The notes under the pieces: model-generated | The model's database searches: none | What the model was told of the DNA's origin: nothing | The model's input: the letters and a program-made list of their open reading frames with translations, nothing else | From: Pediococcus acidilactici | Lineage (GTDB): Bacteria; Bacillota; Bacilli; Lactobacillales; Lactobacillaceae | NCBI GenBank assembly: GCA_024970065.1 | Contig: CP103908.1 | Location: forward strand, 372,001-436,000 | Direction of reading: 5' to 3' | DNA length: 64,000 nucleotides | Shown here: positions 998-43,633 of the stretch, piece after piece | How positions within the stretch are numbered: position 1 is the first letter of the stretch | How the letters are laid out: the number at the start of each line of letters is the position of its first letter | Translations under genes and position numbers: made by a program

Positions 998-1105
998 AAT
1001 CTGGTCCTCGTTGTTTGTATTAACCTAAGTGTAACCCTTAATGGGTGAAAAAATATACTAAATCGATTAAAATATATTATTTGGAGCTTAAGGGAGAAAT
1101 CTATA

Positions 1106-1840
1106 TTGAACATTTTAACAAATTTATACGGTCCCTTCTTCGACCTCAACAATTGGAAGACGGTACTAGAGTCCAGTTCCGACTGGCTGGTTATTTTATC
1201 ACTGGTAATGATTGAATGTTTATTATCGGTGGATAATGCCGTAGTCCTTGCGACCCAGACTCAAGTACTGGGAGATAAGGTGGAAAGGGAGAAATCATTA
1301 TTTTACGGTTTGTGGGGCGCGTACCTATTCCGATTCTTAGTCATTGGAATTGGAACGTACCTCATTCACCTATGGGAAATAAAAATCATCGGGGCACTTT
1401 ACCTTGCTTACCTAGTATTCCGATATTTCGACAAGCGCAAACGGGGGCGTCGAACCCGCAAATTAGTGAAACCACAAGGTAGAATTTCACTTTTTTGGCG
1501 GGTGGTAATCCAAATTGAATTTATGGACATCGTCTTTTCAATTGATTCGGTACTGGCTTCGTTGGCGATTTCTTCTAATCCAGTCATTGTGTTGCTGGGT
1601 GGATTAATTGGAATCTTAGCGATGCGGGGAATTGCCGAAGTGATCATGAAATTAATGCACCGGATTCCGGAGCTAGAGACAATGGCCTACGTGCTGATTG
1701 GAATTATTGCCTTGAAGCTTTTCTTGTCGATTCCCGCAATTGACATTGAAATTAACTCGGGAATTTTTGCCGGAATCGTAATGCTTGCATTCTTGATTAC
1801 GATTGCGATTCACTACCTCAAAAAAAGCGCACGCAAATAA
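1106..1840 (+). CDS. TerC family integral membrane protein
   Basis: 244 aa with about seven hydrophobic segments. It carries the paired acidic motifs of the TerC/YkoY family: ECLLSVDNAVV near the N-terminus and EFMDIVFSIDSVLAS in the second half. Members are linked to metal (Mn2+) export and metal loading of exported enzymes; the exact substrate here is unknown. The start is a TTG at 1106 preceded by AAGGGAG at a normal distance. It is followed after 40 bp by trxA, which has its own extended -10 promoter, so cotranscription is possible but not required. Confidence 0.85.
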   Translation: MNILTNLYGPFFDLNNWKTVLESSSDWLVILSLVMIECLLSVDNAVVLATQTQVLGDKVEREKSLFYGLWGAYLFRFLVIGIGTYLIHLWEIKIIGALYLAYLVFRYFDKRKRGRRTRKLVKPQGRISLFWRVVIQIEFMDIVFSIDSVLASLAISSNPVIVLLGGLIGILAMRGIAEVIMKLMHRIPELETMAYVLIGIIALKLFLSIPAIDIEINSGIFAGIVMLAFLITIAIHYLKKSARK

Positions 1841-3097: not shown

Positions 3098-3880
3098 ATG
3101 ATTACATTGAAATCAGAACGTGAAATTGAAGGAATGCGGAAAGCAGGCGCAGTTTTAGCGGGGATGCATATTGGACTTCGCGATGTAATTAAGCCAGGAA
3201 TTTCTAGCTGGGACATCGAAAAATTCGCGCTTCGCTATTTAGACGAACACGGCGCAGTTCCGGAAGAAAAGGGCTTTGAAGGTTACGAATACGCAACTTG
3301 CGTGAGTGTTAACAACGAAGTATGTCACGGTTTTCCGCGCAAAGATTTAATTTTAAAGGAAGGCGACTTAGTTAAAGTCGATACCGTAGTCAGCGTAGAC
3401 GGCTATATGGCAGATTCCTGCTGGGCATTTGCGGTTGGCGAAGTTAGTGACGAAGTTAAGAAATTAATGGAAGTTACCAAGAAAGCTTTGTACCTTGGAA
3501 TTGATCAAGCCGTTGAAGGAAACCGAATCGGTGATATTGGCCACGCAATTCAAACTTACGTGGAAGATGAAATGGGATACGGTGATGTTCGTGAATTTGT
3601 TGGTCATGGTATTCAACCAACGATGCACGAAGATCCAATGGTACCGGGCTATGGCGAAGCTGGTCACGGTCCACGGCTCCGGAACGGAATGACCATTACT
3701 ATTGAACCAATGGTAAATACCGGAAGTTGGCAATGTGATACGTCTGCTCCAGACGGTTGGACGGTTACTACCATGGACGGCAGTTTGTCTTGCCAATACG
3801 AACATACTTTAGTGGTTACGCCAGATGGCCCTAAGATTTTAACTTCACAGGATCCAGTGGGGGACGCTAAGTACCTTTAA
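3098..3880 (+). CDS. map: Methionine aminopeptidase, type I
   Basis: About 260 aa. It removes the initiator methionine from nascent proteins. Metal-ligand segments of the family are visible: VKVDTVVSVDGYMADSC (first Asp pair), EFVGHGIQPTMHEDP (His), TITIEPMVN and QYEHTLVV (Glu ligands). I place the start at ATG 3098 (MITLKSE), because GGTGG sits 5 bases upstream and lactobacillar homologues begin MITLK; an upstream GTG at 3089 is in frame but overlaps that ribosome site. A strong terminator follows. Confidence 0.95.
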   Translation: MITLKSEREIEGMRKAGAVLAGMHIGLRDVIKPGISSWDIEKFALRYLDEHGAVPEEKGFEGYEYATCVSVNNEVCHGFPRKDLILKEGDLVKVDTVVSVDGYMADSCWAFAVGEVSDEVKKLMEVTKKALYLGIDQAVEGNRIGDIGHAIQTYVEDEMGYGDVREFVGHGIQPTMHEDPMVPGYGEAGHGPRLRNGMTITIEPMVNTGSWQCDTSAPDGWTVTTMDGSLSCQYEHTLVVTPDGPKILTSQDPVGDAKYL

Positions 3881-30999: not shown

Positions 31000-31917
31000 A
31001 TGCAGGCACAAGGATATTTCACGTTTGACCGTACCGCGTGGCAAAATTTATCAAATCGGGCCGAATTACCGCTGACTCAGCAGCAATTAGCCGATATTAA
31101 GGCACTTAACGACCGGATTTCCTTAGAAGACGTCCAGGACGTTTACGTTCCGTTGGTACGGTTACTGCAAAAGAAGTACGCTGATTTTGAAAAATGGAAT
31201 TGCGATAAATTGGACTTTTTACAAATTCCGGTTAAAAAGACACCGTTTATTGTGGGAATTTCGGGGAGCGTGGCGGTAGGCAAAAGCACCACTGCCCGTC
31301 TGCTGCAGGTGCTATTAAGCAACTGGTTTAGTGATTTGAAGACCCAGTTGATTACCACGGATGGTTTTTTGTACCCCAACGCTGAATTAAAGCGACGCCA
31401 CCTAATGAGTCGGAAAGGATTTCCTGAAAGTTACAACATGAAGGAATTGATCCACTTTTTAAACGCGGTGAAAACGGGGCAAAAGCAAATTAAGGTGCCC
31501 AAGTATTCCCACCAAGTCTATGACGTTATTAAGGACGAATACGACGTAATTGACCAGCCCGATATTTTAATTGTGGAAGGCATTAACGTGCTCCAATTGC
31601 CGGCTAACGAAACCATTTACGTCAGCGACTTTTTCGATTGGTCGATTTATGTGGACGCAGAGGCGGATTTGATTGAAAAGTGGTTCTTGGAGCGGTTCGG
31701 CGTGTTATTGGATACGGCATTCCACGATCCGAGCAACTATTACTATCAGTATGCCCAGATGCCCCGCGAGGAAGCCTTTGCCTACGCGAAAAAGATTTGG
31801 CGTGACATCGATTTGAAAAATTTAAAGGAATACATTTTGCCAACCCGTTTTAGAGCGGACATGATCCTGCATAAAACGGAGGGGCACGTGATGGATAATA
31901 TTTTAGTGCGGGTGTAG
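31000..31917 (+). CDS. coaA: Pantothenate kinase, type I
   Basis: 305 aa. Phosphorylates pantothenate, the first and controlling step of CoA synthesis. P-loop GSVAVGKST near residues 90-98, TTDGFLYPN and the [11 protein letters not shown] segment are characteristic of type I CoaA. It is probably transcribed with alsSD and ends at the terminator 32041-32081. Confidence 0.95.
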
Positions 31918-32040
31918 GCAACACCGGTGTCTAAATGGGTACAAAAAATGGCTCCCCGTACTGACGGCTATCCAAAAGTGGGCTAACTTAACTAGAGAAG
32001 AAAGTGGCACAACAGTTGGGGAGTTTGTGAATATTACTGA

Positions 32041-32081
32041 AAAACGACCATTATGCTTGAATTTAGCATAGTGGTCGTTTT
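32041..32081 (+). terminator. Terminator of alsSD-coaA
   Basis: 16-base arms AAAACGACCATTATGC / GCATAGTGGTCGTTTT with a 9-base loop and T tract. It is closely related in sequence to the hairpin at 55223-55272. Confidence 0.9.
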
Positions 32082-32376
32082 TGGTTAAGCAGATCAGACT
32101 GATATTTGGCTGGATTAAAGGTGAAACGCCAAAACGATTTTTAGAAGAGTTTGCATCCGTAAAAACGATTTTTTTCTCGGCTTCTTTTTTGTGCAAAAAC
32201 TCAATGGAGATTAAACTATCTAGGGGTGCTAGCCAGCTTGAACGGTAGGAGATGGGGCTTTACGAACTCTTTTAATTAGGTACTCTGGATAAGGCTTAGC
32301 ATCACAAATCGAAAGACCAACCCGGTTGGAATTATTAACTAGAGAGTACTAAATGCTTTTCTTTTTAAGATGATGA

Positions 32377-32385
32377 TGCTAAACT
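32377..32385 (+). promoter_or_regulatory. Candidate extended -10 promoter of the tcyP leader
   Basis: TGCTAAACT (TG-n-TAAACT) places transcription start near 32392, about 33 bases before the leader ORF. The -35 region is poor, so this is a candidate only. Confidence 0.35.
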
Positions 32386-32424
32386 TACTAAAAATACATA
32401 AAAACGCTAAGGGAGCTAATTACT

Positions 32425-32457
32425 ATGAAGATGTGTTGTTGTTTGATATCAGTCTAA
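32425..32457 (+). CDS. Cys-rich leader peptide of tcyP (MKMCCCLISV)
   Basis: Ten codons, ATG 32425 to TAA 32455-32457, with a second in-frame TAA immediately after. GGGAG lies nine bases upstream. Residues 4-6 are three consecutive Cys (TGT TGT TGT), extremely unlikely by chance in a ten-residue ORF in front of a cystine transporter. Bases 32435-32449, covering these codons, are complementary to 32530-32544 (13 of 15 paired, including one wobble). An intrinsic terminator follows at 32578-32615. The set fits ribosome-mediated attenuation: slow reading of Cys codons under cysteine shortage would alter folding and allow read-through into tcyP. The peptide itself probably has no function. Confidence 0.75.
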   Translation: MKMCCCLISV

Positions 32458-32577
32458 TAAATAAGTGATCAAAATATGGATTCTCTTATTTGTTAGCGAA
32501 CTAACTTGTTTTCATTTCAAGGGAAATTCATATCGATCATCAACATACCTTCTATTAATTTTTTTACTGTGCAATAA

Positions 32578-32615
32578 GGGTTGGTGTCTATTTGAATAGA
32601 TCCCAACTCTTTTTT
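32578..32615 (+). terminator. Attenuator terminator in the tcyP leader
   Basis: 15-base arms starting GGGTTGGTG and ending CCCAACTC (one mismatch, two wobbles) followed by six T. No gene ends here, since coaA has its own terminator 500 bp upstream, so it is best explained as a conditional terminator before tcyP. Confidence 0.75.
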
Positions 32616-32631
32616 GTTAGGAAGAAAAATT

Positions 32632-32691
32632 ATGGTAAATAAAAGATTAGTTAAACTACTGGGTAAGCATCGTGGAGGCCAAACTTGTTGA
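32632..32691 (+). CDS. Possible 19-codon ORF between attenuator and tcyP
   Basis: ATG 32632 is preceded by AGGAAG at a normal distance. The ORF encodes MVNKRLVKLLGKHRGGQTC and ends TGT TGA. It is basic, with Cys as the last residue. It might be a second leader ORF or chance; coding support is only the ribosome site. Confidence 0.3.
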   Translation: MVNKRLVKLLGKHRGGQTC

Positions 32692-32762
32692 TTAAGTCTA
32701 GCTATAAAACAATTTAAACGACTTTTATAATAACTTAATTAATAAGAGGGAATGAGTATAAT

Positions 32763-34148
32763 ATGAATGATTTGATAACCATGGCGGTTGTTGGAAGTGC
32801 CGCCCTGATACTGTTTATTTTGGCTTTTTTACAGCGAAAGAACGTCAGCTTTAACAAATTAGTGCTGCTGGGATTAATTCTTGGATTGAGTTTTGGGGCA
32901 ATCAACCAGGTCCTTTTTGGGGCGACGAGTAAAATCGTCACTACGGCAGTTGATTGGATCGGAATTGTGGGAAATGGCTACATTTCGTTGCTGCAAATGC
33001 TCGTGATTCCGTTAATCGTAATCTCCTTAATCAGTGCGTTTACTAAGCTAGGAAACGCTAAAAATCTGGGAAAAATCGCGAGAAATGTGTTAACGGTACT
33101 ATTGTCTACCACTGCAATTGCAGCGTTTATTGGAGCAATTACCGTTATCGCTTTTAATTTGCAAGGAGCGTCGTTTGTAAAGGGAACGGCGTCAAAAGAT
33201 AACCTGGCCTTCTTACAACAACACCAACACGCGCTGAGCGAGTTGACGATCCCGCAAAAAATTGTGAGCTTCTTGCCACAAAATATTTTTGAAGACCTTG
33301 CCGGTACGCGCGCAACCAGTACGATTGCGGTAGTGATCTTCTCTTTAATCGTGGGGATGGCGTATATATGGTTAAAAGAACACTATCCTAACGATGCCGC
33401 GGCTTTTGCACGGGGCACCGATATTCTGGATAAATTGATATCCAGAATGGTACGCATAGTTATTAATTTGACCCCGTACGGAATTTTTTCGTTGATGGTG
33501 AAGACGATTGCGGTGAATAGCATTAAGACTATTATGGGCTTGGCGTACTTTATTGTGGCTGTTTACGTAGCCCTATTGCTAGTGTTAATGGTGCATACCA
33601 TCATTTTGCTCTTCATGCACACTAACCCAATTGAATACTACAAAAAAGTATGGCCGACCCTGATCTTTGCATTTACCTCACGAAATAGCGCGGGGACGTT
33701 ACCAATGAACGTCGAGGTACAAACTAAGCAATTGGGAATTAACAAGGCAATCGCGGATTTTTCGGCCAGTTTAGGACTTAGCATTGGGCAAAACGGGTGT
33801 GCCGGTATTTATCCAGCGATGATTGCGTCAATAACGGCTCCCGTAGTGGGGATCAACATTGTTTCGGTGAAGTTTATTCTAACGCTAATCGTTATCGTAA
33901 CCATCTCATCCTTCGGGGTCGCGGGCTCGGGCGGCGGTGCAACCTTTGCCGCTTTAATCGTCCTAGGGACCTTAAACTTACCCGTGGGGGTTATGGGAAT
34001 TGTGTTGGCAATTGATCCGATTATCGACATGGGACGCACGCTGGTGAACGTTAACGATAGTATCTTAGCAGGATTGGTAACCGCTAAACGAAGCGATATG
34101 TTTAACGAGGACGTTTTCAACGGAAAAGAAAAAATTGAGCAAGCTTAG
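32763..34148 (+). CDS. tcyP: L-cystine/proton symporter TcyP
   Basis: 461 aa, DAACS-type (glutamate/dicarboxylate carrier fold) with about eight to ten hydrophobic segments and re-entrant loops. It closely resembles Bacillus TcyP: QRKNVSFNK at the N-terminus, ISAFTKLGNAKNLGKI, FAFTSRNSAGTLPMN, SIGQNGCAGIYPAM and ISSFGVAGSGGGATFAAL. It imports cystine. The Cys-rich leader peptide and attenuator upstream support cysteine as the regulating signal. Monocistronic; ends at the terminator 34189-34229. Confidence 0.92.
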   Translation: MNDLITMAVVGSAALILFILAFLQRKNVSFNKLVLLGLILGLSFGAINQVLFGATSKIVTTAVDWIGIVGNGYISLLQMLVIPLIVISLISAFTKLGNAKNLGKIARNVLTVLLSTTAIAAFIGAITVIAFNLQGASFVKGTASKDNLAFLQQHQHALSELTIPQKIVSFLPQNIFEDLAGTRATSTIAVVIFSLIVGMAYIWLKEHYPNDAAAFARGTDILDKLISRMVRIVINLTPYGIFSLMVKTIAVNSIKTIMGLAYFIVAVYVALLLVLMVHTIILLFMHTNPIEYYKKVWPTLIFAFTSRNSAGTLPMNVEVQTKQLGINKAIADFSASLGLSIGQNGCAGIYPAMIASITAPVVGINIVSVKFILTLIVIVTISSFGVAGSGGGATFAALIVLGTLNLPVGVMGIVLAIDPIIDMGRTLVNVNDSILAGLVTAKRSDMFNEDVFNGKEKIEQA

Positions 34149-43335: not shown

Positions 43336-43506
43336 TTATTTTTGATAGAAATTCAATGTAGCTGGTATTGATTTTTTTGCTTCAAATATGTTAACGGATA
43401 AATCCTTAATCATGCCCTCCAGAGCTAATGCATCGTTATCCAATAAAAATTCGTCAAAATCTCCGTAAAAGAAGTCGCCATAGTATGAGAATAAACATCT
43501 AATTTA
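43336..43506 (-). pseudogene. Remnant of an unidentified gene
   Basis: Minus-strand frame open from just after a stop near 43504 to TAA 43336-43338, reading …FSYYGDFFYGDFDEFLLDN… and ending …LNFYQK. It has no start codon near the front and no ribosome site. A second, frame-displaced open stretch (…YEGNPAHIPTNFGKVLVGK…) lies at about 43530-43640. Together they look like a decayed gene 3' part. Family not recognised. Confidence 0.4.
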
Positions 43507-43633
43507 GGTGAATGGGAAAGGCTTATAAATCAACGTTTTATATTTCGAAAATGATCGATTCCCAATAGATTTATATATTTCCCTACCAAAACCTTGCCAA
43601 AATTGGTGGGAATGTGTGCGGGGTTACCTTCAT

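Follow-up and report, generated by a model that had tools for sequence, protein, structure and literature searches.

Attenuators of the E. coli trp type carry their control codons in segment 1 and operate through the pairings 1:2, 2:3 (the antiterminator) and 3:4 (the terminator). The Gram-positive bacteria of the group considered here sense amino acids at the RNA level mainly by means of T-boxes. Work of Canestrari from 2020 is said to have described polycysteine leader ORFs in mycobacteria. According to the available part of PMC1262725, the actinobacterial cys and cbs leaders contain ORFs with Cys codons, and no conserved terminator hairpin was found in them. The accessible text of PMC13236596 attributes the control exerted by the mycobacterial polycysteine ORFs to translation attenuation and, in a title that it cites, calls these ORFs leaderless. 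The uORFC-8-2 motif, situated before cysS in Rhodobacterales, has two tandem Cys codons and a U run fitting an intrinsic terminator, and is read as ribosome-mediated attenuation in the portion of PMC8632094 at hand. The His leader peptide of hisS/hisZ in bacilli is a case in which a leader peptide and a T-box have been exchanged at one gene; in the available part of PMC2965389, no earlier leader-peptide system of Firmicutes apart from ermC was known to its authors. The literature matches listed, in which subscription journals are thinly covered, included no Cys leader from Lactobacillaceae.

The window analysed here is a stretch of 64,000 nucleotides (bases 372001-436000 of a 2.0 Mb Pediococcus genome). 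It is probable (roughly 0.8) that the tcyP gene in this window is controlled by a cysteine-responsive, ribosome-mediated transcription attenuator. The tcyP leader resembles that of E. coli trp in having its control codons in segment 1 and in its 1:2, 2:3 and 3:4 pairings. Unlike the trp leader, it uses Cys, has 118 bases between stop codon and terminator, possesses an extra switch between two hairpins (P2 and Q) and is followed, behind the terminator, by a conserved small ORF (ORF2). A ribosome on its stop codon, again unlike in trp, leaves segment 2 uncovered and would free the antiterminator.

Like the actinobacterial and mycobacterial leaders, the tcyP leader has consecutive Cys codons in a small ORF ahead of Cys-related genes. 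However, it consists of an ORF led by a Shine-Dalgarno sequence (SD) and an intrinsic terminator, and does not belong to the leaderless polycysteine attenuators of mycobacteria. Tandem Cys codons, a terminator-type U run and the reading as ribosome-mediated attenuation are common to it and uORFC-8-2. The latter belongs to Alphaproteobacteria and a synthetase gene, whereas the genes concerned here are tcyP or a MetQ/NlpA-like gene, so that, judged by the gene served, the tcyP leader falls outside this motif. No counterpart of ORF2 is mentioned for uORFC-8-2 in the available part of PMC8632094. The likeness to the His leader lies in the occurrence of a leader-peptide attenuator in Firmicutes that swaps with a T-box at one gene; the His leader differs in its amino acid, in its host (Bacillus) and in serving synthetase genes. 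Cys leaders have been described from both Actinobacteria and Rhodobacterales, and none from Lactobacillaceae was among the literature matches listed. Attenuation by ribosomes on Cys codons as such is known; the clade, the two transporter gene families and the attached small ORF would be new.

Organization of the tcyP leader

The leader lies in an 845-base gap that separates coaA (31000-31917), which encodes pantothenate kinase, from tcyP (32763-34148, + strand), which encodes an SDF-family cystine symporter of 461 amino acids, named after the annotation of its relatives. A hairpin followed by a T run, recognized by eye at 32043-32079 (+) behind coaA, suggests that the leader is probably not transcribed from the upstream operon. 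The gap contains, in this order, a possible extended -10 element, an SD, ORF1, a terminator, a second SD, ORF2 and tcyP. The candidate extended -10 promoter element, TGCTAAACT (32377-32385, +), was picked by eye and has the counterpart TGATACACT in P. acidilactici DSM 20284; it would place the transcription start near 32391-32393. A simple scan of 31900-32800 listed no sigma-70 promoter. The same scan missed the terminator of the tcyP leader, the sole terminator listed being on the minus strand. Elsewhere in the window, at 43480-43619 (+), there is an Rfam match to the Listeria sRNA rli38, with a score of 58.6 against a gathering score of 49 bits.

ORF1 (32425-32460, +; coding part 32425-32457) is preceded by the SD sequence AAGGGAG (32409-32415, +). 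Its codons are ATG AAG ATG TGT TGT TGT TTG ATA TCA GTC TAA TAA, giving the peptide MKMCCCLISV and tandem stops, in agreement with the initial annotation, which had described a ten-codon, SD-led ORF of this sequence before a TcyP-type symporter. The three consecutive Cys codons that it had noted upstream of tcyP are present, at the corrected position 32434-32442 (+), and their role as control codons is suggested by comparison. The intrinsic terminator reported before tcyP also exists; the coordinates 32578-32615 given for it are replaced by a stem at 32576-32611 (-16.3 kcal/mol) followed by a U tract, the whole spanning 32576-32615 (+). Behind it are the SD sequence AGGAAG (32619-32624, +) and ORF2, MVNKRLVKLLGKHRGGQTC (32632-32691, +), a second conserved small ORF that the initial annotation had missed and that is recognized by comparison. 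Thus the window has the SD-led short upstream ORF, the run of Cys codons and the intrinsic terminator between ORF and gene that characterize an attenuator.

Alternative helices and covariation

Ten leaders of the kind found in the window (type I, see below) were aligned and their stems enumerated, yielding the helices P1, P2, Q, AT (the antiterminator) and the terminator. Segment 1 (32427-32450, +), which contains the Cys codons, forms P1 with 32530-32553 and would act as anti-antiterminator; it has a counterpart in 10/10 leaders. The initial annotation had rightly paired the Cys codons with this region, but its 32435-32449 with 32530-32544 is only part of the full helix. P2 (32454-32496, +) pairs 32454-32465 with 32485-32496 and holds the stop codons in its 5' arm (z -4.5). 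The alternative helix Q (32474-32533, +) pairs 32474-32487 with 32519-32533 (z -2.7) and is exclusive with P2. The antiterminator, which had been left unresolved, is now proposed to be formed by segment 2 (32525-32552, +), identified by duplex energy, and segment 3 (32575-32598, +), which is the 5' arm and loop of the terminator and was identified by alignment and duplex energy. The octamer ACCAACCC at 32316-32323, formerly put forward as complementary to the terminator arm, was rejected because it precedes the inferred transcription start and is absent from about 500 bases upstream in P. acidilactici DSM 20284.

The helices compete through shared strands: segment 2 can enter either P1 or AT, one strand is common to P2 and Q, and the 5' arm serves both AT and the terminator. 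All ten homologous leaders have the same set of mutually exclusive pairings, namely Cys codons with segment 2, segment 2 with the terminator 5' arm, and the terminator itself. Together with the homologous leaders themselves, these pairings support the ribosome-mediated attenuation layout with Cys codons proposed in the initial annotation, as far as sequence comparison can carry it.

Duplex energies were scored against shuffles of one strand. For the window, P1 has -19.7 kcal/mol, with none of 300 shuffles as good, and the AT duplex has -15.4 kcal/mol (p 0.033). AT reaches p <= 0.04 in 9/10 leaders. The mean z values over the ten leaders are -3.0 for P1, -3.6 for P2, -3.1 for Q and -2.5 for AT; the exceptions are P1 in L049 (p 0.07) and L110 (p 0.10), AT in L110 (p 0.38), and P2 (p 0.51) and Q (p 0.73) in L109. 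In several leaders of the genus designated g26 the SD region can in addition pair behind the antiterminator strand (helix P0; p <= 0.01 in L103, L104, L105 and L108, p 0.13 in L109), perhaps as a further check on translation of ORF1. P0 is absent from the window.

The leader L049 illustrates how the pairings are maintained. Columns 31, 135, 174 and 200 of alignment A1 change jointly in it from U, A, U, A to C, G, C, G. These four linked changes leave the 1:2, 2:3 and 3:4 pairings intact: they affect a base of segment 2, the base opposite it in the second Cys codon, the base opposite it in the 5' arm of the terminator, and the 3'-arm base that pairs with the latter. Within the second Cys codon the change falls on the third base (column 31) and turns TGT into the synonymous TGC. 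Among three sequences, P1, P2 and the terminator together have 5 double-changed pairs versus 1.6 in shuffles (3/500 as high); for Q and AT the figure is 2 versus 0.7 (48/500 as high), a weak signal. The consensus fold of the ten leaders holds only Q and the terminator, with double changes in 16 of its 29 pairs.

Partition functions of the nascent RNA, averaged over the ten leaders, give 13.3 expected pairs of P1 and 0.1 of AT when the ORF is free. With a ribosome on the Cys codons P1 falls to 0 and AT has 7.8 pairs; with a ribosome on the stop codon AT is also freed, at a mean of 11.0 pairs. L104 and L106 form little AT in the stalled state (0.4 and 0.2 pairs). Upon equilibrium folding of the complete terminator in three sequences, the terminator has 0.98-1.00 both with the ORF free and with the ribosome stalled. 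The finished terminator thus wins at equilibrium, and control would have to be kinetic. Single-sequence folding was discarded as proof of the antiterminator, being weak for the window, where pairing of the terminator arm in the stalled state is 0.61 versus 0.64 in shuffles and P. acidilactici DSM 20284 is likewise unremarkable. The case for an antiterminator exclusive with both the terminator and the Cys-codon helix therefore rests on comparison, the window by itself giving modest (p 0.033) or no support.

Conservation and survey of Cys-codon leaders

Comparison of the window with P. acidilactici DSM 20284 shows ORF1 and its stops to be identical at 35/36 positions, the terminator at 34/36, segment 2 at 31/34 and ORF2 at 52/60; the values are 57/79 for the part further upstream and 43/71 for the spacer ahead of tcyP. 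Among 301 genomes of the family, DNA similarity matched the leader over its length in only these two Pediococcus genomes. Additional matches were taken as chance: those in L033 and L036 lie within long ORFs, those in L034 and L035 are at the T-box terminator and start of a tyrS-like gene, and that in L037 was viewed as sequence only.

For a wider survey, 31 loci were taken from the 35 genomes matching tcyP, leaving out G124, G149, G172 and G218; removal of L054 and L058, which have less than 500 bases upstream, gave 29 tcyP upstream regions. These loci are related by descent, and those from one genus are no independent cases. In 18 of the 29, from six genera (g1, g54, g26, g5, g12 and g44), there was an SD-led ORF of no more than 45 codons with at least two consecutive Cys codons, and in 15 one with at least three. 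In 100 rounds of dinucleotide shuffling the means were 1.22 (maximum 4) for at least two Cys and 0.04 (maximum 1) for at least three, and the reverse complements of the 29 regions had none at either threshold. The peptides, such as MKMCCCIMSK (L049), MTKLNFKIQLACCCTCYML (L052), MFNVRQANSCCCNCQK... (L066), MFCQKAQQMMCCCQQAMPMSC... (L063), MTNAIFTKSAACCACCAN... (L057) and MNSKRMCCKPL... (L073), differ across genera in nearly everything but the Cys run. A hairpin with a T run stands behind the Cys ORF in all 16 of the 18 loci that were scanned (L068 and L072 were left out), as a raw count; for L052, the hairpin ending in seven Ts was taken in place of the program's pick.

The Cys ORF anticipated in homologous leaders is kept in both tcyP-bearing Pediococcus genomes, in 12/12 tcyP genomes of g54, where it always has CCC, and at the tcyP loci examined from four additional genera, but not throughout the family, the Cys-run leader being absent from 11/29 upstream regions. 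Leader DNA of the L066 kind matched 11 of the 12 g54 tcyP genomes and, by its terminator part only, one more genome. Outside the family but within the order, 16 loci of relatives were read, and none had a CCC ORF in the 500 bases examined.

Four of the 11 family upstream regions that have no Cys leader match the T-box family, L061 above and L055, L056 and L059 below the Rfam cut-off. All four have the aligned specifier AUG and the T-box UGGU, which we take, by the usual T-box rules, to mean Met and not Cys. L059 has a second T-box on the opposite strand (3536-3775). L055, from a g50 genome, contains group II intron domains (Rfam) at 1030-1352 (-), shortly downstream of tcyP and on the same strand.

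Two leader architectures

Type I comprises the leaders of the window, P. acidilactici DSM 20284 and L049, with a 10-codon ORF, an antiterminator strand about 70-95 bases past the stop codon, and ORF2. In type II (the remaining g54 loci, g12 and g5) the ORF has 34-38 codons, and those that follow the Cys run are themselves able to form the antiterminator. L052, with a 19-codon ORF, was placed in neither type.

In the nine type-II loci of g54 and g12 that were folded, a ribosome on the Cys codons gives upstream pairing of the terminator arm of 0.77-0.90, versus 0.05-0.66 with the ORF free, and in two g5 loci the values are 0.63-0.64 versus 0.09-0.27. With the ribosome on the stop codon, arm pairing in type II scatters from 0.02 to 0.80, and folding therefore does not predict the off state consistently. 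Compared with 100 shuffles, stalled-state arm pairing beats all in L063 and L064 and 56-94 in the others outside type I. L073 runs contrary to the model, with arm pairing of 0.90 free and 0.58 stalled.

ORF2 and a second transporter gene

ORF2 represents a family of 18-25 residues with the pattern N-L-L-GK-RGG-C, located between terminator and gene in 10/10 type-I loci. A search of 397 genomes of the family with a 19-residue ORF2 found the two Pediococcus genomes, the L049 genome and seven g26 genomes at E <= 0.007. A profile search of the same 397 genomes recovered the identical ten at E <= 6e-11, with nothing else better than 0.018, and gave no further strong match in 256 genomes of the order; weak profile matches in the family and order searches had E 0.018-0.042. 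A match in G007, which falls out of frame within a cysS-like ORF of 470 codons, was taken as chance. All ten strong matches adjoin a Cys-codon leader, and loci with type-II leaders have no ORF2 match.

Pairwise differences among the ten ORF2 sequences number 213, 130 and 391 at codon positions 1, 2 and 3. Because third positions vary most and nine residues, including a Cys near or at the end, are invariant in the eight distinct sequences, ORF2 is very probably translated. A 25-residue member had no Pfam match, and its only NCBIfam match, PmrR (E 0.083), was below the cut-off.

The seven g26 loci (L103-L106, L108-L110) have a leader ORF with 2-3 consecutive Cys codons, the terminator and ORF2 in the same order as in the window. 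The next gene is alike in all seven and is not tcyP. In L104, the sole locus scanned, it encodes a MetQ/NlpA-like binding protein (Pfam PF03180), the MetQ models remaining below their cut-offs. MetQ/NlpA-like genes at 208-1068 and 1619-2440 flank the Cys leader in L104, and no ABC subunit was evident among the ORFs of this 3 kb region.

Identity and distribution of TcyP

TcyP is a sound name for the symporter because its relatives at 43-53% identity carry the annotation L-cystine transporter or tcyP. Among the NCBIfam models, none specific for cystine matched it, the best models (GltP and others) being below their cut-offs, and cystine is the presumed substrate. The TcyP of P. acidilactici DSM 20284 is 92% identical to that of the window. 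At E <= 1e-80, tcyP occurs in 2 of 12 Pediococcus genomes, and a TcyP relative at E <= 1e-60 in 35 of 397 Lactobacillaceae genomes; in g54, 12 of the 75 genomes searched have tcyP. Relatives in plasmid records are all below 60% identity. In L050 and L051, tcyP was seen by eye to lie closely behind an upstream reading frame.

The TcyP of genome G251 is 73% like that of Pediococcus versus 58-60% like those of its own genus. As its leader is also of type I, this suggests that the whole module was transferred.

Proposed mechanism and alternatives

From the arrangement of the helices we infer that ORF1 is translated, that ribosomes stall on it, and that a kinetic competition makes the switch respond to cysteine. 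When Cys-tRNA is short, the ribosome would stall on the three Cys codons and cover segment 1. Segment 2 (32525-32552) would then be available for base-pairing with 32575-32598, the 5' arm and loop of the terminator; the terminator would thus be blocked, and RNA polymerase would continue into ORF2 and tcyP. When cysteine is ample, the ribosome would complete the ten-codon ORF and depart, allowing segments 1 and 2 to form P1. The antiterminator would thereby be blocked and transcription would stop at about 32612. The exclusive hairpins P2 and Q around the stop codons probably tune the attenuator.

The same RNA switch could be set by a signal other than Cys-tRNA, with thiol oxidation, metal or translation stress being sensed through the nascent CCC peptide or through slow decoding. 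Runs of Cys are redox- and metal-reactive, the computed RNA logic needs merely a slow ribosome, and in ORF2, too, a Cys close to or at the C-terminus is invariant. However, the peptides share little beyond the Cys run across genera and a synonymous change from TGT to TGC is tolerated, observations more easily reconciled with the sensing of codons than of one particular nascent peptide; moreover, the genes under control encode a symporter of the cystine type or a MetQ-type binding protein. We regard such a signal as improbable. Somewhat less improbable, and still unlikely, is a second, translational layer in which the attenuator would act on transcription and the Cys-containing ORF2, by being translated, would govern initiation at tcyP. 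The very probable coding function of ORF2 and its tie to the leader in 10/10 loci speak for such a layer, whereas ORF2 ends 71 bases before tcyP in the window, too far for plain coupling, and is unmatched at loci with type-II leaders. As an addition, this layer would not contradict the attenuator.

There is little to recommend the idea that ORF1 and its terminator are an independent gene for a Cys-rich small peptide, or an sRNA, with the tcyP promoter downstream. The terminator would close such a gene and 147 bases are available between its U tract and tcyP, but the covarying antiterminator and the link between leader and transporter genes would be left without a reason. A degenerate T-box or a riboswitch of unknown type, the ORF being incidental, is the least credible explanation of all. 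T-boxes do precede tcyP in other genera of Lactobacillaceae. Nevertheless, an Rfam search of the tcyP leader at E up to 10 gave only nine sub-threshold matches to unrelated families, the best being mir-15 (E 0.011, 21.5 versus 57.3 bits), so that neither the T-box (RF00230) nor any known riboswitch reaches the cut-off, and none of the 18 matches of a T-box search in the genome itself is at this leader.

For the family as a whole, the Cys-codon attenuator and the new 18-25-residue family, made only on read-through, may constitute a portable cysteine-regulation module of Lactobacillaceae that has been joined to two unrelated transporter families and moved between genera, other lactobacilli having apparently unrelated Cys attenuators before tcyP. 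ORF2 would then be a working peptide of cysteine homeostasis, acting for example on the importer or its translation, and not debris. We consider the arguments for and against this wider proposal to be evenly balanced.

Within one family, the upstream region of a single gene, tcyP, has a T-box in some genera and a probable Cys-codon attenuator, homologous or seemingly unrelated, in others, which opens the replacement of one regulatory RNA by another at the same gene to direct tests. The analysis also reveals a small protein family, ORF2, the one member scanned having no Pfam or NCBIfam model, and it predicts that transporters in lactobacilli and Pediococcus would be under the control of cysteine.
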